From positions 248,001 to 312,000 of the forward strand of contig NZ_BJFL01000001.1 in assembly GCF_005405885.1 (NCBI RefSeq): a stretch of 64,000 nucleotides of DNA, given 5' to 3'. Source of the DNA: Gandjariella thermophila (GTDB taxonomy: Bacteria; Actinomycetota; Actinomycetes; Mycobacteriales; Pseudonocardiaceae). Shown in pieces: positions 39,663 to 48,405 of this stretch. The notes beneath the pieces are model-generated. The model saw only the letters and a program-made list of their open reading frames with translations. It ran no database searches and was not told the origin of the DNA. The position numbers and the translations under genes are program-made. Position 1 is the stretch's first letter. Each line of letters begins with the position of its first letter.

Positions 39663-39808
39663 TACACTGGGCGGCGGAACAGCTCATTGCCTTGTCGAGG
39701 AGTGACGCTTCCAGTGCCCGATGCGCAGCCGGCTGGCTGTAGTACCGAGCCGGGTGAGAGTCCCGGCTGCCATACCGACCCGGATGCCGGCACCGAGCGG
39801 GGTGCGTG
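39663..39808 (+). promoter_or_regulatory. Structured leader of the CNNM transporter operon
   Basis: About 130 bases precede the first CNNM gene. A TACACT -10-like hexamer is at 39663-39668. A strong hairpin GCCGGG-TGAGAGT-CCCGGC lies at 39749-39767 with further GC-rich complementary blocks. The size and structure fit a cis-regulatory leader. I cannot match it to a riboswitch class: it lacks the cobalamin GCCACTG box and the manganese-riboswitch core. Confidence 0.35.
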
Positions 39809-39812
39809 GTGA
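39714..39812 (+). CDS. Possible 32-residue leader peptide
   Basis: GTG 39714, 11 bases after GAGGAG, opens a 32-codon frame (PDAQPAGCSTEPGESPGCHT...) whose TGA overlaps the GTG of the CNNM gene in a GTGA tetranucleotide. Such coupling argues for translation. The peptide is rich in Pro, Gly, Ser and Thr with two cysteines. It shares bases with the leader hairpin, so it might be an upstream reading frame that governs access to the transporter start, or only chance. Confidence 0.3.
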   Translation: MPDAQPAGCSTEPGESPGCHTDPDAGTERGAW

Positions 39813-41200
39813 CGGGCACTCTGCTGGATTTGCTCGGCCTCCTCGCGGTGGCGATCCTCACCTTCGGCACCGCGGTGTTCGTCGCGGCCGAGTTCGCCCT
39901 GACCACGCTGGACCGCAGCCAAGTCGAGCAACACCTGCGGCAGGCCGGTGACCGGAGGGCCCGGCGCGTCCTGCACGCCCACCGCACACTGTCCTTCCAG
40001 CTTTCCGGCGCCCAGCTGGGAATCACCATCACCACGCTGGTCACCGGTTTCATCGCCGAGCCGGCCATCGCCGGGCTGCTCCGCCCCGTGCTGGCCGCGG
40101 TCCGCCTGCCCACCGCCGTCGCCGACCCGATCGCGGTGGCGCTGGCCATGCTGGTGGCCACCACCGTGTCCATGGTGTTCGGCGAGCTGGTGGCCAAGAA
40201 CCTGGCCATCGCCCGGCCGCTGCGCACCGCCCGGGCCGTGGTCGGCTTCCAGTGCGCGTTCTCCTCGACGTTCCGCTGGCTCACCCGCGGGCTGAACGGC
40301 TCGGCGAACTGGCTGGTGCGCCGGCTGGGCGTGGAGCCGGCCGAGGAGCTGCGCTCCGCCCGGTCGCCGCAGGAGCTGGGGTCGCTGGTCCGGTCCAGCG
40401 CCGCGCAGGGCACCCTGGACCCGGGCACGGCCACCCTGCTGGACCGGTCGCTGCGCTTCGGCGACCGCACCGCCGGCGAGCTGATGACGCCGCGGGTGCA
40501 GACGGTCTCGTTGCGTGCCGACGCCACCGTGCTCGACCTGCTGGACGTGGCGCGGCGCACCGGCTTCTCCCGGTTCCCCGTGCACGACGGGGACCTCGAC
40601 GACGTGCGCGGCGTGGTGCACGTCAAGCAGGCGTTCGGCGTGCCCGCCGCGCAGCGGGCGACCACCCGGGTGGCCTCGCTGACCCGGCCGGTGCCCACGG
40701 TGCCGGAGACGCTGGAGGGTGACGCGCTGCTGGACCGGCTACGCGGCTCCGGTCTGCAGTTCGCCCTGGTCGTCGACGAGTACGGCGGTACGGCCGGCGT
40801 GGTCACCCTGGAGGACCTGGTCGAGGAGATCGTCGGCGACGTGCGGGACGAACACGACCGCCGCGAGGTCGCCCCGGTGCGCCCGCTGGGCTGGCAGAGC
40901 TGGCTGGTGTCCGGGCTGCTGCGGGGTGACGAGGTGGCCGAGGCCACCGGGTTCCGGATGCCCGAGGGAGGGTACGAGACCCTGGCCGGCCTGGTGCTGG
41001 AGGAGCTGGGCCGCATCCCCGACGTGGGCGACGAGGTCCGGGTCGACGGGTGGCGGATCACCGTGATGCGGATGGACCGGCACCGCGTCGCCGAGCTACG
41101 GCTGGCCCGGGTGCCGGACACGCCGTCGCCCACCGACACGACACCGCCGCCCCGGCCGGCCGAGCCGGTCGGGGCGGGGCGCGCGGAGGTGTCCCGATGA
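39809..41200 (+). CDS. CNNM/CorC-type transporter with CBS pair and CorC_HlyC domain
   Basis: 463 residues. The N-terminal CNNM (DUF21) domain has about three to four membrane segments (VFVAAEFALTTLDRSQVEQ, AQLGITITTLVTGFIAEPAI, VFGELVAKNLAIARP). A CBS pair follows (GELMTPRVQTVSLRADATVLDLL... FALVVDEYGGTAGVVTLEDLVEEIVGD), then a C-terminal CorC_HlyC transporter-associated domain. The family handles Mg2+ or other divalent cations. I choose GTG 39809, 6 bases after GGGG, though GTG 39806 is equally possible. Coupled to the next gene by ATGA. Confidence 0.9.
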   Translation: MTGTLLDLLGLLAVAILTFGTAVFVAAEFALTTLDRSQVEQHLRQAGDRRARRVLHAHRTLSFQLSGAQLGITITTLVTGFIAEPAIAGLLRPVLAAVRLPTAVADPIAVALAMLVATTVSMVFGELVAKNLAIARPLRTARAVVGFQCAFSSTFRWLTRGLNGSANWLVRRLGVEPAEELRSARSPQELGSLVRSSAAQGTLDPGTATLLDRSLRFGDRTAGELMTPRVQTVSLRADATVLDLLDVARRTGFSRFPVHDGDLDDVRGVVHVKQAFGVPAAQRATTRVASLTRPVPTVPETLEGDALLDRLRGSGLQFALVVDEYGGTAGVVTLEDLVEEIVGDVRDEHDRREVAPVRPLGWQSWLVSGLLRGDEVAEATGFRMPEGGYETLAGLVLEELGRIPDVGDEVRVDGWRITVMRMDRHRVAELRLARVPDTPSPTDTTPPPRPAEPVGAGRAEVSR

Positions 41201-42246
41201 GCACCGGCGTCGCGCTGCTGCTGTCCGTGCTGCTGCTCGCCGGCAACGCGTTCTTCGTGGGCGCCGAGTTCGCGCTGATCAGCGCCCGGCGGGACCGGCT
41301 GGAGGCGATGGCCGACCGGGGTGTGGTGCGGGCCAGGGCGGTGCTGCGGGCCGGCAGCCGCATCTCGCTGATGCTGGCCGGCGCCCAGTTCGGCATCACG
41401 CTGTGCTCGCTGGGACTCGGCGCGCTGGCCGAGCCGGCCGTGGCACACGCGCTGGAGTCGCTGTTCGGGCCGCTGGCCGTGCCCCGTGCCGCGCTGCACG
41501 CGGTGGCCTTCCCGATCGCGCTGGCCATCGTGGTGGTGCTGCACATCGTGCTGGGCGAGATGGTGCCGAAGAACCTCGCGATCGCCGGGCCGGAACGCAC
41601 CGCCGTGCTGCTGGTCCCGCTCCACCGGGAGTTCGTCCGGCTGGTGCGGCCGCTGATCGGGCTGTTCAACCTGATGGCCAACGGCACCCTGCGGCTGGTA
41701 GGCGTGCGCCCGAAGGACGAGCTGGACGCCGCCTACACCCCGGACGAGTTGGCCTCGCTGATCGCCGAGTCCCGCCGGGAGGGCCTGCTGGACGACTCGG
41801 AGCACCGGCGGCTCACCCAGACCCTGTCCTCGGCCGAGCGGACCGTGGCTGACGTGCTGGTCCCCTTGGACCGGGTGACCATGGTGCCGCCCACGCCCAC
41901 GCTGGGCGACGTGGAGGCGGCGGTCGCGGCGACCGGGTTCTCCCGGTTCCCGGTCCGTTCGGCGGACGGCCGGCTGGCCGGGTACCTGCACATCAAGGAT
42001 GTGCTGGACCTGGCGGGCGAGGACCCGGCGACGCCGGTGCCACGCGGCCGCATCCGCGGGCTCCCGGAGCTGCCGGTGGACGCCAGGCTGGACGACGCCC
42101 TGGCCGCGCTCCGCCGCGCCCGCAGCCACCTGGCCAGGGCCGTTTCCGCGGACGGCGCGGTGCGCGGCGTGGTGGCCCTGGAGGACCTGGTCGAGGAGTA
42201 CGTGGGCACCGTCCGGGACGGCACCCACGTGGCCAACCCGGTCTGA
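41197..42246 (+). CDS. Second CNNM/CBS transporter, lacking the CorC_HlyC domain
   Basis: 349 residues. Its CNNM domain (FFVGAEFALISARRDRLEAM, AQFGITLCSLGLGALAEPAV, VLGEMVPKNLAIAGPERTA) and CBS pair resemble the preceding protein, but it ends right after the second CBS motif (VVALEDLVEEYVGTV). The start ATG overlaps the previous stop (ATGA). The two proteins probably form a heterodimer. The same long-plus-short pair exists in mycobacteria (Rv1842c/Rv1841c, from memory). Confidence 0.9.
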   Translation: MSTGVALLLSVLLLAGNAFFVGAEFALISARRDRLEAMADRGVVRARAVLRAGSRISLMLAGAQFGITLCSLGLGALAEPAVAHALESLFGPLAVPRAALHAVAFPIALAIVVVLHIVLGEMVPKNLAIAGPERTAVLLVPLHREFVRLVRPLIGLFNLMANGTLRLVGVRPKDELDAAYTPDELASLIAESRREGLLDDSEHRRLTQTLSSAERTVADVLVPLDRVTMVPPTPTLGDVEAAVAATGFSRFPVRSADGRLAGYLHIKDVLDLAGEDPATPVPRGRIRGLPELPVDARLDDALAALRRARSHLARAVSADGAVRGVVALEDLVEEYVGTVRDGTHVANPV

Positions 42247-42373: not shown

Positions 42374-42471
42374 GGCACACCAACCGGGCTACTCGTGTCG
42401 GGGTGAGGCAGGCCCGGCGCCGACTACGGTGAGTAACCAGTGGCCGTAACCGGGCGCTGAAGGGAATGTCG

Positions 42472-43692
42472 ATGGCTCGACACCGCACGCGCGAGACGCG
42501 GGTGCAGCGCGGCATCGCGCGCTGGCCGCTGCTCGTGCTCGGGATGGTCGTCCTGATCGTGCTGGGATGGCTGGGCTACACCTGGATCGGCGGCGTGCTG
42601 CAGCGCCGCGCCGCCGCCCAGGCGGAGAGTTGCCCGGCCGGCGAGGAAGCGGTGCACGTGGCCGCCGCACCGGGCATCGCCGAGGCCATCCAGCAGGCCG
42701 GCAACGCGTGGAACCGGCAGCGCCCGGTGGTCCTGGACCACTGCATGCACGTCGAGGTGCAGTCCATCGATCCGCAGACCACGTTCGCCGGGCTGACCCA
42801 GACCTGGGACGACGCCAGGCTCGGGCCGAAGCCGCAGGCGTGGGTGCCGGACTCCACGGTGTGGGTCAACCGGCTCATCGCGCAGAACGCCGGGCTGGTC
42901 GGCGCCCCGGCGCGCGGGCTGGCCACCAGCCCGGTGCTGCTGGCCGTGCCGCAACCCGGCGAGCAGGCGCTGCTGGGTGGCAACGGGTTCGGCTGGAGCG
43001 ACCTGCCCGCGCTCACCTCGGCACCGGACGGGTGGGCCCGCTACGGCAGGCCAGAATGGGGCCGGTTCGTGGTGGCCGTGCCCGACCCGGCGGGCAACGC
43101 CGCCAGCGCGCTGGCGCTGCAGTCCACGGTGGCCGGCACGACGGCGCAGAGCACCGGCCCGGTCACCGCGCAGGTGCTGGACCAGCAGCCCGCCAGGGAC
43201 CTGCTGGCCAGGCTCAGCGGCGCGCAGCCGGCCAGGGTGCCGGCCACCACCGTGGGCGCGCTCGGCGCGCTGGACCGGGTGGACATGCCCTCGGGCGCCT
43301 TCACCGCCGTGCCGGTCTTCGAGGTCGACCTGTATCGGCACAACCTCAGCAAGGACGGCACCTCGCCCACCCGGCCGCTGTCCGGCGTCAGCCCCGGCGG
43401 CGCGACCCCGGCGGCCGACTTCCCGCTGCTTCCGCTGGCCGCGCCCTGGGCGGACGATGCCCAGCAACGGGCGGCCCAGCAGTTCCGCGACTTCCTCACG
43501 GAGCCCGCCCAGCAACGCCTGTTCGCCCGGGCCGGGCTGCGCGTCCCGGCATCGGCGGAGCATCCGGATCCCTCCCCTGGCATCCGCTGGGCGCCCACCG
43601 CGCAGCCGCTGGCGCCCGCCGACGCCGCCACCACCCAGCAGCTCACCGCCGCCTGGACCGCCGGCCTGCGCGCTGCCGTTCAGGGCCGGTAG
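42472..43692 (+). CDS. Membrane-anchored substrate-binding-domain protein
   Basis: 406 residues. One N-terminal transmembrane anchor (WPLLVLGMVVLIVLGWLGYTWIGG, about 20-43) is followed by an extracytoplasmic domain resembling bacterial extracellular solute-binding proteins (VHVAAAPGIAEAIQQAGNAWNRQRP; PQAWVPDSTVWVNRLI; FPLLPLAAPWADDAQQRAAQQFRDFLTEPAQQRLFA). In related actinobacterial proteins this domain is often joined to a VWA domain, which is missing here. No transporter genes flank it, so a role other than uptake is plausible. ATG 42472 is preferred, 6 bases after AAGGGA. Confidence 0.75.
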   Translation: MARHRTRETRVQRGIARWPLLVLGMVVLIVLGWLGYTWIGGVLQRRAAAQAESCPAGEEAVHVAAAPGIAEAIQQAGNAWNRQRPVVLDHCMHVEVQSIDPQTTFAGLTQTWDDARLGPKPQAWVPDSTVWVNRLIAQNAGLVGAPARGLATSPVLLAVPQPGEQALLGGNGFGWSDLPALTSAPDGWARYGRPEWGRFVVAVPDPAGNAASALALQSTVAGTTAQSTGPVTAQVLDQQPARDLLARLSGAQPARVPATTVGALGALDRVDMPSGAFTAVPVFEVDLYRHNLSKDGTSPTRPLSGVSPGGATPAADFPLLPLAAPWADDAQQRAAQQFRDFLTEPAQQRLFARAGLRVPASAEHPDPSPGIRWAPTAQPLAPADAATTQQLTAAWTAGLRAAVQGR

Positions 43693-43786
43693 GACCATCA
43701 CCGGGCCGGGGGATCCTGCCGCCCTGGGGTGTGCGGGCATCGTTACGGCCCGCGGCCCGGCCACCGCCGGCCGTTAACGTGCCGAC

Positions 43787-44833
43787 GTGGTAGGAGCGGA
43801 TCCGGATGACGGCGGCCGGCTGGGTCGGCTTGCCCGGCGGGGCGCGATGCTCCTGGCCGGCACCGCGGCGACGCTGGCCGGACTCGTCGCCGGCGCCACG
43901 CCGGTGCGCGCCGAGGTGCCGACCTGCCAGCTCGGCGCCTACCTCGCCGACCTGTACGGCGTCGACACGCGCAACCAGACCATCAACGCCGACGTGTGGT
44001 TCTGGAGCGTGTGTGCCCGACCTGAGCTCGAACCGATCGAACATTTCGAGTTCATCAACGCCACCGAACATCGGCAGGTCTACCGGGCGAGTGTGCCGCG
44101 AGGCTCGCAGTACTGGACGTACGTCAAGTTCGTCGGCACCTTCCGGCAGAACTTCGACCTGCGGGACTATCCGTTCGACCAGCAGACCGTGAACATCATT
44201 GTCGAGGACACGCGCGACGAGAACGAGTTCGTCTACACACCGGATGTCGCCAACTCGACGTACAACCACGACATCAAACTCTCCGATTTCGGCATCACCG
44301 GATTCCGGGTGGCCACCCGCGACCACCGGTACCAGACAACCTTCGGCGACCCGCGGCTGGCGCACGGAACCGGAAGCAGCTACACCCAGTTCGTCCTCGA
44401 CGTAGCGCTCAGCAGGACGGACGTCAGCATCTTCGTCAGGCAGACCTGGCCGGTGTTTGTCTCCTTCCTGGTCGCCATGGTCAGCTATCTGCTGTGGTCC
44501 GCGGAGGCCACCCCGGTGCTCACCGCGCGGGTGGGCCTGCTCGGTGCCGCCCTGTTCGCCGTCGTGCTGAACCTGGTGAATCTGCGCGCCGCGGGGGATC
44601 TGATCGGCACGTTCGCCGGAACGACCCTTGTCGACCAGGTGCACCTGATCACCCTGGGGTACGTGCTGGTCGGGGTGGCGACCACCGCGCTGACCTGGTG
44701 GCTGGCCAACCGCCCGGACGGAGCGCGGCCCCGCGGCCGGGCGCGGCGCACCAACGACCTGATCGGCATCGTCGCCAGCGTGGTCTACGTGGCCCTGGTC
44801 GCCGGCGCCGTCGCGTACGCCGTCGTCACGTGA
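43787..44833 (+). CDS. Prokaryotic pentameric ligand-gated ion channel homologue (Cys-loop family)
   Basis: 348 residues. A signal peptide (AMLLAGTAATLAGLVAGATPVRAE) precedes an extracellular beta-sandwich with the Pro-loop signature FDLRDYPFDQQTVNIIVED, the hallmark of the Cys-loop superfamily without its cysteines. Four membrane segments follow: TWPVFVSFLVAMVSYLLW, ARVGLLGAALFAVVLNLVNL, HLITLGYVLVGVATTALTWWLA and LIGIVASVVYVALVAGAVAYAVV. M2 lacks the classical charged ring of GLIC/ELIC. GTG 43787 has no Shine-Dalgarno but a TAACGT -10-like hexamer just upstream, so a leaderless transcript is plausible. A GGAG further on leads only into a wrong frame. ATG 43847 is an alternative start. Confidence 0.78.
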   Translation: MVGADPDDGGRLGRLARRGAMLLAGTAATLAGLVAGATPVRAEVPTCQLGAYLADLYGVDTRNQTINADVWFWSVCARPELEPIEHFEFINATEHRQVYRASVPRGSQYWTYVKFVGTFRQNFDLRDYPFDQQTVNIIVEDTRDENEFVYTPDVANSTYNHDIKLSDFGITGFRVATRDHRYQTTFGDPRLAHGTGSSYTQFVLDVALSRTDVSIFVRQTWPVFVSFLVAMVSYLLWSAEATPVLTARVGLLGAALFAVVLNLVNLRAAGDLIGTFAGTTLVDQVHLITLGYVLVGVATTALTWWLANRPDGARPRGRARRTNDLIGIVASVVYVALVAGAVAYAVVT

Positions 44834-44859
44834 GCCGGCCGCGCGGGGGCGCAGCGGCG

Positions 44860-45024
44860 ATGACTTCCCGCCGCGGCGGTGATCTTATCTCCGAGCACAC
44901 ACCCGGAGAAGCGGCCGTACCGCCCAGCATGCCGCGCGGAAACACCATGCCGCCGGCTATCGGTGACCCAGCGATCAACCTCGCCGAGGAGCTCATCGCC
45001 GCGCGTGAAGAGGAGCGCTGGTGA
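44860..45024 (+). pseudogene. Remnant of a toxin-antitoxin antitoxin gene
   Basis: A 54-codon frame whose last part (GDPAINLAEELIAAREEERW) looks like the C-terminal toxin-binding tail of a Phd/VapB-type antitoxin. Its TGA overlaps the natural GTG of the PIN toxin frame. The N-terminal DNA-binding half is not recognisable and there is no room for it before the channel gene stop, so the antitoxin appears truncated. Confidence 0.5.
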
Positions 45025-45430
45025 TCTACTCGACCCCACCGCGATGATCAAACTGGTCCGGGAGGAGGAGCACAGCCGCGAACTCGCCGAATGGCTCGAT
45101 GCTCGCCCGCAGGCGGAACTGGTGTCTTCGGCGCTCGTCGAGGTGGAAGTGTCCCGCGCTCTGCACCGGTCGATGCCACAGGCGCTACCACGGGTGCCGA
45201 CCACGCTCGCCAAGCTGTACCGGCTCTCGATCGGCCCGGTCGTCCGAGCCACCGCGGCGGCCTATCCGGACCAGCGCCTGCGCTCGCTGGACGCCATTCA
45301 CGTCGCCACGGCGCAGATTCTGGCCGATGACCAAGCCGCGAACCTGGAGGCCTTCGTCAGCTATGACAAGCGCCTGCTGGCCAGCGCTGCCGCCGCAGGT
45401 CTCCCCACGGCCAGCCCGGGCGCCGACTGA
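45021..45430 (+). pseudogene. VapC-type PIN-domain toxin with frameshift near the start
   Basis: From 45030 on, the frame encodes an intact PIN domain: LDPTAMIKLVREEEHS, LVSSALVEVEVSRAL, RSLDAIHVATAQIL, AFVSYDKRLLASAAAAGLP. All four acidic active-site residues are visible. The expected start GTG-ATC-TAC, overlapping the antitoxin stop, is out of frame by one base with this body. Restoring one C after TAC would give V-I-Y-L-D-P. It is therefore either a decayed toxin or a base-call error. An in-frame ATG at the Met of DPTAMIK would lack the first Asp. Confidence 0.65.
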
Positions 45431-45441
45431 CTCCCGCCGGC

Positions 45442-45481
45442 GGGTGGCACGCCGCAGAGAAGGGGACAGACCGTGCCACCC
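45442..45481. terminator. Bidirectional terminator hairpin
   Basis: GGGTGGCACG (45442-45451) pairs perfectly with CGTGCCACCC (45472-45481) around a 20-base loop, between the convergent PIN gene and gcvP stops. Confidence 0.65.
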
Positions 45482-45498
45482 ACCCGGCCGCGGTACGG

Positions 45499-48405
45499 TC
45501 AGCTCTGGTAGGCGCTGATCGGGGGGCAGGAGCAAACCAGGTTGCGGTCGCCGCGGGCCCCGTCAATGCGGCGGACGGGGGGCCACACCTTCGGGCCGTG
45601 GCTGCCGGCCGGGAAGGCGGCCTGCTCCCGGGTGTACGGGTGGTGCCACTCGCCGGCCAGGCAGGCCGCGGTGTGCGGGGCGCCGCGCAGCGGGTTGTCC
45701 TCCACCGGCCACTCGCCGGAGGCGACCCGCTCGATCTCCCGGCGGATGGCGATCATGGCGTCGCAGAAGCGGTCCAGCTCGGCGAGGTCCTCGCTCTCGG
45801 TAGGCTCGACCATGAGGGTGCCGGCCACCGGGAAGGACATGGTCGGCGCGTGCAGACCGTAGTCGGCCAGCCGCTTGGCCACGTCGTCGACGGTGACACC
45901 GGTGCGCTTGGTGATCGGCCGCAGGTCGAGGATGCACTCGTGGGCGACGAACCCGCGCGCGAGACCCGCTTGCGGGGTCGAGCCATGGTCATGGCCGGTG
46001 TAGAGCACCGGGTAGTGCTCGTCCAGCCGGCGGGCCACGTAGTTGGCGGCGGCCACCGCGGTCAGCGTGGCGCGGCGCAGCCCGTCGGGGCCCATCATCC
46101 GCACGTACGCCCAGGAGATCGGCAGGATCGACGCGCTGCCCCACGGTGCTGCGGCGACCGGGCCCACCCCGGTCTTCGGGCCGGCCTCCGGCTGCAGCGG
46201 GTGGTTCGGCAGGAACGCGGCGAGGTGGCCGCGCACGCCGATCGGGCCGATGCCGGGGCCACCGCCGCCGTGCGGGATGCAGAACGTCTTGTGCAGGTTC
46301 AGGTGGGACACGTCGGCGCCGAACTCGCCGAACCGGGCCAGGCCGATCAGCGCGTTGAGGTTGGCGCCGTCCACGTACACCTGGCCGCCCGCCTCGTGCA
46401 CCAGCCGGCACACCTCCACCACGGTGTCCTCGTACACGCCGTGCGTGGACGGGTAGGTGATCATGATCGCCGACAGGTCGTCGGCGTGCCGCGTGACCAG
46501 CTCCCGCAGGTGGTCGAGTTCGATGTTGCCCGAGGAGTCGCAGCGGACCACGACCACCCGCATGCCGGCCATCACCGCGCTGGCCGCGTTGGTGCCGTGC
46601 GCACTGGCCGGGATCAGGCACACGTCCCGCTCAGCCTGGCCGCGGTCGCGGTGGTAGGCGCGGATCGCCAGCAGGCCGGCCAGCTCGCCCTGGCTGCCCG
46701 CGTTGGGTTGCAGGCTCACCGCGTCGTAGCCGGTGATCTCGGCCAGCCACCGCTCCAGGTCGGCGACCACCCGCAGCAGCCCCTCGGCGTCCTCGGCCGG
46801 CGCGAACGGGTGCAGTTCGGCGAACTCCGGCCAGGTGATCGGCTCCATCTCGGCGGTGGCGTTGAGCTTCATGGTGCACGAGCCGAGCGGGATCATGCTG
46901 CGGTCCAGCGCCACATCCTTGTCGGCCAGCGCGCGCAGGTAGCGCAGCAGCGCGGTTTCCGAGCGGTGGCGGTGGAACACCGGATGGGTGAGGTAGTCGG
47001 AGGTGCGGCGCAGGCCCTCGGGCAGCGCGTCCGGCACGCCCGGGTCCAGGTGGTCCGGGTCGGCGTCCACCCCGAAGGCCCGCCACACCAGCCGCAGGTG
47101 CTCCCGGGTGGTGGTCTCGTCGCAGGCCACGCCGACGTGGTCGGCGTCCACCCGGCGCAGGTTCACCCCGAGGTCTCGGGCGGCGGCGACCACGTCGTGT
47201 GCCCGGCCGGGCACGCGGGCGAGCACGGTGTCGAAGAACGCGTCGTGCACCACCTCGACGCCGCCGGAGCGAAGCCCCGCGGCGAGCACCGCGGCCATCC
47301 GGTGCACCCTGGTGGCGATGCCGCGCAGCCCGTCCGGGCCGTGGTAGACGGCGTACATGGCGGCGATCACCGCGAGCAGCACCTGCGCGGTGCAGATGTT
47401 GCTGGTCGCCTTCTCCCGCCGGATGTGCTGCTCGCGGGTCTGCAGGGCGAGCCGGTACGCGAGGTTGCCGTCGGCGTCCACCGACACCCCGACCAGCCGG
47501 CCGGGCAACTGCCGCTCCAGACCGGTGCGTACCGCGAGGTAGCCGGCGTGCGGGCCGCCGAAGCCCATAGGCACACCGAACCGCTGGGTGGTGCCGACGG
47601 CGACGTCCGCACCGAACTCGCCGGGGGCGCGCAGCAGGGTGAGCGCCAGCAGGTCGGCGGCGACGATCGCCATCGCACCGCGCTCGTGCGCCGCCGCGAC
47701 CAGCGCGGCGTGGTCGCGGACCGTGCCGCTGGCGCCCGGGTAGGACAGCAGCACGCCGAAGAACTCGCCGTCCGGCAGGCCGCCGGTCAGGTCGGTCACC
47801 ACGATCTCGATGCCCAGCGGCTCGGCTCGGGTCTCGAGCACCGCGATGGTCTGCGGCAGGGTGTCCGCGTCGACCACGAACCGCGGGGTCTTCGCCCGGC
47901 CGGCGCGGCGCACCAGCGTCATCGCCTCGGCCGCCGCGGTGGCCTCATCCAGCATCGACGCGTTGGCCAGTGGCAGCGCGGTGAGATCGGCGACCATGGT
48001 CTGGAAGTTGAGCAGCGCCTCCAGCCGACCCTGGGAGATCTCCGGCTGGTACGGGGTGTACGCGGTGTACCAGGCCGGGTTCTCCAGCACGTTGCGGCGG
48101 ATCACCGGCGGGGTGACCGTGCCGTAGTAGCCGAGCCCGATCATCTGGGTCATCGGCCGGTTCCGCCCAGCCAGCGCGCGCAGCTCGGCCAGCACCTCCG
48201 CCTCGGTGGCCGGCGCCGGAAGGTCCATGGCCGGGTCGCCGTCCCGGATCGCGGCGGGCACGGCCCGCTGGGCGAGTTCCTCCAGCGAGCCCACCCCGAT
48301 CACGTCCAGCATCCTGGCCAGCTCGGGCGGGCGCGGGCCGACGTGGCGATCCGCGAACGGGACACCATGCTCGAGGGCGGCGAGGGGAATCCGGTCCGTG
48401 GTCAT
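45499..48405 (-). CDS. gcvP: Glycine dehydrogenase (decarboxylating), P protein
   Basis: 968 residues, the full-length single-chain form. It decarboxylates glycine with PLP and passes the aminomethyl group to the lipoyl arm of GcvH. The PLP lysine is Lys706 in [17 protein letters not shown]. Other signatures are [40 protein letters not shown] near the N-terminus and [16 protein letters not shown] at the start of the second half. ATG 48405 lies 7 bases after GGAGG. Expression is controlled by the tandem glycine riboswitch upstream. gcvH is 2.6 kb away on the same strand; gcvT is not in the window. Confidence 0.97.

Follow-up and report, generated by a model that had tools for sequence, protein, structure and literature searches.

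Does an open reading frame in the genome of the actinomycete Gandjariella thermophila encode a genuine pentameric ligand-gated ion channel (pLGIC), akin to the receptors by which nerve cells respond to glycine or acetylcholine, and if so, which ions would its pore pass? We address this question for a stretch of 64,000 nucleotides (the window, to which the coordinates listed below refer), in which an intact forward-strand frame at 43787-44833 starts with GTG and runs for 348 codons without an internal stop. The gene is single-copy in its own genome (6.1 Mb, 131 contigs). It comprises the following features.

43787..44833, + strand: gene for a pLGIC-like (Pro-loop) channel subunit, 348 residues, GTG start
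43775..43780, + strand: TAACGT, a -10-like word that ends 6 nt ahead of the GTG; candidate leaderless start
43841..43912, + strand: hydrophobic part of the signal peptide, residues about 19-42, by hydropathy; possible cleavage after VRA, by inspection only
43913..44413, + strand: extracellular domain, compact form, residues 43-209
43925..43927, + strand: Cys47, first of a pair that is not the Cys-loop pair
44012..44014, + strand: Cys76, second of the pair, just ahead of the shortened stretch
44168..44179, + strand: YPFD Pro-loop motif, residues 128-131, from the sequence
44414..44416, + strand: Arg210, pre-M1, present in 26/26 aligned proteins
44432..44503, + strand: M1 with Pro222, about residues 216-239, by alignment and hydropathy, ends approximate
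44522..44590, + strand: M2 pore helix, about residues 246-268, by alignments, ends approximate; key positions Ala247 (-1'), Arg248 (0') and Phe257 (9')
44636..44707, + strand: M3, about residues 284-307, by hydropathy, ends approximate
44750..44824, + strand: M4, about residues 322-346, by hydropathy, ends approximate

Hydropathy analysis places an N-terminal signal-type hydrophobic segment at residues 19-38, followed by four further segments at about 221-241, 241-273, 285-303 and 322-348. The M3-M4 loop contains six Lys/Arg residues versus one acid, which is the charge that a cytoplasmic loop should carry, and therefore the long domain should face outside and the M3-M4 loop inside. The signal peptide, outer domain, YPFD Pro-loop and four membrane segments listed in the earlier note on this DNA are thus all present in the frame, as judged by sequence and hydropathy. 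Its description of a ‘full Cys-loop receptor plan’ goes too far, because the pair of cysteines that would flank the Pro-loop is absent (Cys47 and Cys76 are the sole cysteines of the protein) and the outer domain lacks about 20 residues.

Kinship with known channels emerges most clearly from profile searches. Using phmmer, the window protein alone reaches GLIC (the Gloeobacter proton-gated channel, for example PDB 3eam) only at an E value of 0.0027, over residues 78-180, and no pLGIC model in Pfam or NCBIfam, including PF02931 and PF02932, matches it; we treat the PF02931/PF02932 miss as a limit of the models and not as a defining trait. A match to DUF3681 (E 0.001, below the cut-off of that model) was taken as chance. 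By comparison with PDB sequences, a six-row profile consisting of the window protein and five relatives, all six of them short, finds 244 distinct sequences up to an E value of 1; the best 60 of them lie between 2.6e-19 and 3e-14 and are GLIC or GLIC-based by name. The first of these is 4x5t, which joins the GLIC outer domain to the membrane domain of GlyR alpha1 (E 2.6e-19), and GLIC chains within the same best 60 of 244 fall at about 1.1e-15 to 3e-14. When the window protein is left out and the profile is built from four relatives, 4x5t again ranks first in the PDB (E 4.9e-21), and chains of ELIC, GluCl and glycine receptors appear among the best 60 of 237 matches listed. When individual relatives are compared with the two Pfam pLGIC models, one relative fused to a type I periplasmic binding domain (PBP-I) matches Neur_chan_memb at E 1.1e-9, a cyanobacterial fused relative stays below the cut-off, one Azospirillum relative matches Neur_chan_LBD with 29.0 bits against a cut-off of 26, and four proteins (L026, L027, L023 and L031) match neither model.

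The conserved residues of the superfamily can also be traced. According to Jaiteh et al. (PMC4795631), pLGICs contain a beta6-beta7 loop motif [F/Y]PxD (P 100%, D 93%), a pre-M1 Arg (94%) that pairs with the Pro-loop Asp in known structures, an aromatic beta9 residue (W 71%, F 16%, Y 11%), a proline in M1 (77%), R/K at 0' (79%) and L (75%) or F (13%) at 9' of M2, and a proline in the M2-M3 loop (88%, with G in 3%). All of these residues are found in the window protein except the M2-M3 proline, whose column holds Gly274, the published minority residue. The YPFD sequence at 128-131 matches the Pro-loop pattern, Arg210 is the pre-M1 Arg, Phe168 shares a column with the Trp of many relatives in an alignment read by eye, Pro222 is the M1 proline (Gly or Thr in four short relatives), and M2 has Arg248 at 0' and Phe257 at 9'. 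Across our alignment of 26 proteins, Pro129 and Asp131 are as invariant as Arg210 (26/26), and Trp73 is present in 25. Like GLIC and 4x5t, the window protein has an outer domain, four membrane segments, a Pro-loop and a pre-M1 Arg, and the profile aligns with them from about Asn91 to M4, with the first strands aligning weakly. It departs from them in a stretch between strand 2 and the Pro-loop that is shorter by about 20 residues, in its cysteine pair, in Phe at 9' and in Gly replacing the M2-M3 Pro. Because plasmid-borne relatives are 45-50% identical to the window protein and the six-row profile reaches E values of 2.6e-19 to 3e-14, the resemblance is more than chance. Sequence comparison therefore identifies the window protein as a real, rare member of the pLGIC superfamily, and this central proposal of the earlier note is borne out by the profile matches to GLIC and 4x5t together with the conserved residues.

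AlphaFold monomer models of the protein have low confidence, with a mean pLDDT of 39.9 for the window protein plus part of L002 (two-row alignment) and 45.3 for the window protein without its signal peptide (one-row alignment). Both consist of beta strands followed by four long helices. In a Foldseek search, the best match of the model with pLDDT 45.3 was at E 0.052 (TM about 0.2), short of the E 0.001 threshold. Of the 50 rows listed for this low-confidence model, 45 are pLGICs by title, two have unclear titles and three (6o58, 1xvs and 1xq4) are not pLGICs by title, and at a TM of about 0.2 the pLGIC rows carry no proof of fold.

The closest relatives that we found are two Streptomyces plasmid proteins, WP_263280302.1 and WP_329460756.1, both annotated as hypothetical, which are 45-50% identical to the window protein over about three quarters of its length (47% and 45% in the alignment). 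They have the same size and plan and share the cysteine pair and Ala-Arg motif but, unlike the window protein, are plasmid-borne and do not have the three additional residues with which M2 ends in the window protein alone (1/26 aligned). In a tree of the 26 proteins, these three form a group with support of 99/99, and 14 fused forms, including those of the window’s own taxonomic family, form another group at 100/99. The alignment omits near-copies or further copies (L005, L007, L008, L037, L043 and the other Azospirillum matches), repeats of the same gene (L001, L017, L018, L030, L033 and L044), fragments or unresolved frames (L019, L021, L025 and L039), the doubtful L011 and L013, the distant or weak L040 and L041, and the weak Neur_chan_memb matches L062 and L063; L038 was retained despite a very long branch. 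In L011 and L013, a small secreted protein matches the N-terminal third only and was not counted as a channel relative; its likeness to the window protein’s first hairpin extends to the word PTC and is probably due to chance. L040, from a genome of the same class, is a distant and different pLGIC-like protein that contains NFPLD and whose N-terminal part is hydrophobic.

Longer relatives (L003-L010, L012, L014-L016, L034-L037 and the cyanobacterial L002 and L042) carry the PBP-I domain before the channel part (Peripla_BP_6 in the two tested). These proteins correspond to the PBP-I-fused bacterial ART-LGICs of Tasneem et al. 2004, whose channel part is homologous to the window protein and also compact, whereas their frames of about 780 codons or more and their separate clade set them apart. 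Azospirillum megaplasmids encode pLGIC-like proteins, two of which were aligned from eight records, that like the window protein are short and unfused with Arg at 0' and Phe at 9', but are only 25-26% identical to it and have no cysteine pair; one of the two, which exceeds the Neur_chan_LBD cut-off, has Asp at -2'. Matches to the channel are sparse, with counts that include the window’s own genome: 14 of 249 genomes at the level of the family (two of which look like chance), 4 of 298 for the order, 12 of 394 for the class and 6 of 396 for the phylum. Neur_chan_memb scored above its cut-off in none of 246 genomes of the phylum and none of 14 control genomes. The class and phylum counts and this Pfam result agree with the earlier statement that such channels are rare in bacteria. 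A scan of plasmids matched ten records, two from Streptomyces and eight from Azospirillum.

The outer domain of the window protein is unusual in two respects. First, the part before the Pro-loop is about 20 residues shorter than in GLIC. In the 4x5t match, 34 residues of the GLIC part (43-76) stand opposite 13 profile positions (79-91), with a weak first-strand anchor of 6.9 bits, and by hand count an Azospirillum protein has 46 residues between points that the Pfam model places about 70 positions apart. The columns of Trp73 and Asn91 are 15 to 19 residues apart in all 26 aligned proteins, and the compact form is therefore common to the aligned relatives. The missing stretch would presumably take in strand 3 together with some of loop A. 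In known receptors, the stretch between strand 2 and the Pro-loop contributes to the ligand site, and the usual ligand site may be altered in the shortened domain. Second, Cys47 and Cys76 are both present in only five of the 26 proteins, namely the window protein, the two Streptomyces plasmid proteins and two same-class proteins of one genus, which form a clade with moderate support only (80/69 in the 26-protein tree). In both low-confidence AlphaFold models, Cys47 is at the start of strand 1 and Cys76 at the end of strand 2, making a cross-strand disulfide plausible.

Which ions might pass? In Tasneem et al. (PMC549065), E-[RK] before M2 denotes cation channels and A-[RK] denotes anion channels. 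The window protein reads Ala247-Arg248, with no acid at -1' or -2', and in the six-row profile Arg248 aligns with the Arg of the GlyR PARVGL stretch in 4x5t. Because Ala-Arg precedes M2 and no acid occupies -1' or -2', anions are the ions that would most likely cross the open pore. The claim that M2 is without the usual charged ring therefore holds for the acid, which is missing at -1' and -2', but not for basic charge, as Arg248 sits at 0'. Arg occupies 0' in 16 of the 26 aligned proteins, including 11 of 12 short forms, and is missing in 9 of the 14 fused forms; strict Ala-Arg is found in four of the 26. Nine aligned fused forms from the window’s own family have Pro, Gly, Ala or a gap at 0', and never Arg. 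A 0' Arg is common to most of the superfamily, and it is solely the missing acid that points to anions.

A channel that is cation-selective or non-selective, with an A-R motif that is not decisive in bacteria, is unlikely but not negligible. The characterised bacterial pLGICs, GLIC and ELIC, are cation or non-selective channels. Moreover, the mouth of the pore varies among relatives. Acids occur at -1' in three of the 26 proteins (L002 and L042, from one cyanobacterial genome, and L038) and as Asp at -2' in three others, all short forms (L020, L022 and L029), so that a neutral mouth is not general to the clade; among short relatives, one has Asp at -1'. The window protein itself has Glu240 in its M1-M2 loop. 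PMC4795631 likewise describes the positions preceding 0' as more variable in prokaryotes, with R/K at 0' itself widespread. By contrast, the window protein and the four other cysteine-pair proteins all have Arg at 0' and no acid at -1' or -2', and the best PDB match of the profile, 4x5t, has the membrane domain of GlyR. Because the five cysteine-pair proteins keep a neutral mouth, the -2' Asp of other short relatives leaves the odds on an anion pore unchanged.

The genomic setting bears on how the channel gene arrived and whether it is still in use. It lies in one further feature, to which no strand is assigned.

43693..45498, no strand: putative acquired insert with the channel and PIN-domain genes, about 1.8 kb, ends approximate

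The channel gene has a GC content of 0.677 (GC3 0.894) and the PIN gene 0.693 (GC3 0.82), versus 0.73-0.76 (GC3 0.94-0.97) for two CNNM genes, a solute-binding gene and gcvP; the names CNNM, gcvP and MerR are Pfam-based. Downstream of the channel gene, 44860-45430 holds a 54-residue frame and the PIN-domain (VapC-like) gene (PF01850, E 3.7e-11) with a candidate start. Upstream, two adjoining CNNM/CBS membrane protein genes at 39806-42246 are side by side in 5/5 related neighbourhoods, where the CNNM-CNNM-solute-binding order is kept with varying spacing, and gcvP (glycine cleavage P-protein), which adjoins the insert at 45499-48405, is inside the fetched stretch in four of the five. Neither the channel nor the PIN gene was detected in any of the five (tblastn, E 1e-6). 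Because of this absence and their lower GC, the channel and PIN genes were most likely inserted as a segment of about 1.8 kb. In one neighbourhood (L058), about 141 bases separate the stop codon of the solute-binding gene from the last aligned gcvP codon, and in another (L060, 5600-6960) this interval holds other, coding-looking DNA and may be a variable site. A link between gcvP and a glycine-receptor-like pore is tempting, but in four of five relatives gcvP is present in this region and the channel is not. A phage or defence origin was rejected on our searches: the phage scan and five scans of contigs from viruses contain no channel relative, PADLOC has no match for the channel, solute-binding, PIN or 54-residue proteins, and PHROGs has none for the channel, PIN or 54-residue proteins.

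Acquisition raises the prospect that the protein is a relic freed from selection, or a non-conducting receptor that signals by conformational change only. A single copy, a patchy spread, the doubtful start of the accompanying PIN gene and the three additional M2 residues would all suit such a history. However, the frame is open over all 348 codons, GC3 is 0.89, the coupling residues are intact and identity to the plasmid relatives is 45-50%, and we regard a relic or non-conducting receptor as quite improbable.

The gene upstream, at 42466-43692, ends 94 bp before the channel gene and encodes a solute-binding protein (SBP_bac_11, E 4.9e-12). Its homologues are found in 31 of 41 genomes searched, the own genome included, and it follows the two CNNM genes with the channel missing in 5/5 fetched neighbourhoods; this synteny indicates that the solute-binding gene itself is ancestral. 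Hence, although this domain match, the PBP-II operon neighbourhoods and PBP-I fusions that PMC549065 describes for other bacteria, the fused PBP-I forms within the window’s own family and two substrate-binding genes near an Azospirillum relative could all suggest that the channel is half of a two-gene chemoreceptor, the synteny rejects a PBP-II operon at this locus, no solute-binding gene is annotated within 7 kb of either Streptomyces plasmid relative (in an incomplete gene table), and such a pairing here is very improbable. The operon model may hold elsewhere, for example in Azospirillum sp. B510, where L028 (1528-10585, plasmid pAB510b) contains that relative near the two substrate-binding genes in a run that also holds a TPR protein, an alanine racemase and an MFS gene.

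For translation of the channel gene, no Shine-Dalgarno-like word precedes the GTG and a -35/-10 scan found no promoter. A -10-like element placed as TAACGT is precedes just 7 of 1917 GTG/ATG codons of the + strand, and a leaderless message is plausible. Among relatives, TACGGT ends 7 nt before the ATG of the closest (L026), GGAGG stands 9 nt ahead of the start in L027, and neither a -10-like word nor GGAGG is present in L031 and L032, whose starts we chose ourselves.

We therefore favour, with a probability of roughly 0.68, the reading that the gene product is a subunit of a Cys-less, most likely anion-passing pentameric ligand-gated ion channel; the pentamer, its gating, its ligand, its anion selectivity and the disulfide are features that we infer rather than observe. 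In a possible mechanism, the signal peptide would export the subunit, and a pentamer would form in the cell membrane, its beta-sandwich domains facing outward. Binding of a small molecule or ion on the outside would then cause movement that passes via Asp131 of the Pro-loop to Arg210 and the M2-M3 loop. Finally, the pore would open at the ring of Phe257 (9'), acting as a hydrophobic gate, and the anion-type mouth at Arg248 would let anions through.

More broadly, human neurotransmitter receptors are modelled structurally on bacterial pLGICs. The group described here has been little noticed; the window protein is not recognised by Pfam or NCBIfam, and the two Streptomyces relatives carry no functional annotation. 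We know of no characterised anion-selective bacterial pLGIC, and the literature titles and abstract openings listed in our searches contain none. An actinobacterial clade that moves horizontally and whose pentameric channels are minimal, stapled by a disulfide, selective for chloride and gated via a site other than the usual one is an idea that we put forward tentatively and consider doubtful as a whole. If the clade is anion-selective, it would provide a small homopentamer for the question of how a chloride pore works, as well as a test case from nature for how small an outer domain can still support gating. A chloride-selective clade, if real, would by pore type be the bacterial counterpart of the glycine and GABA receptors.
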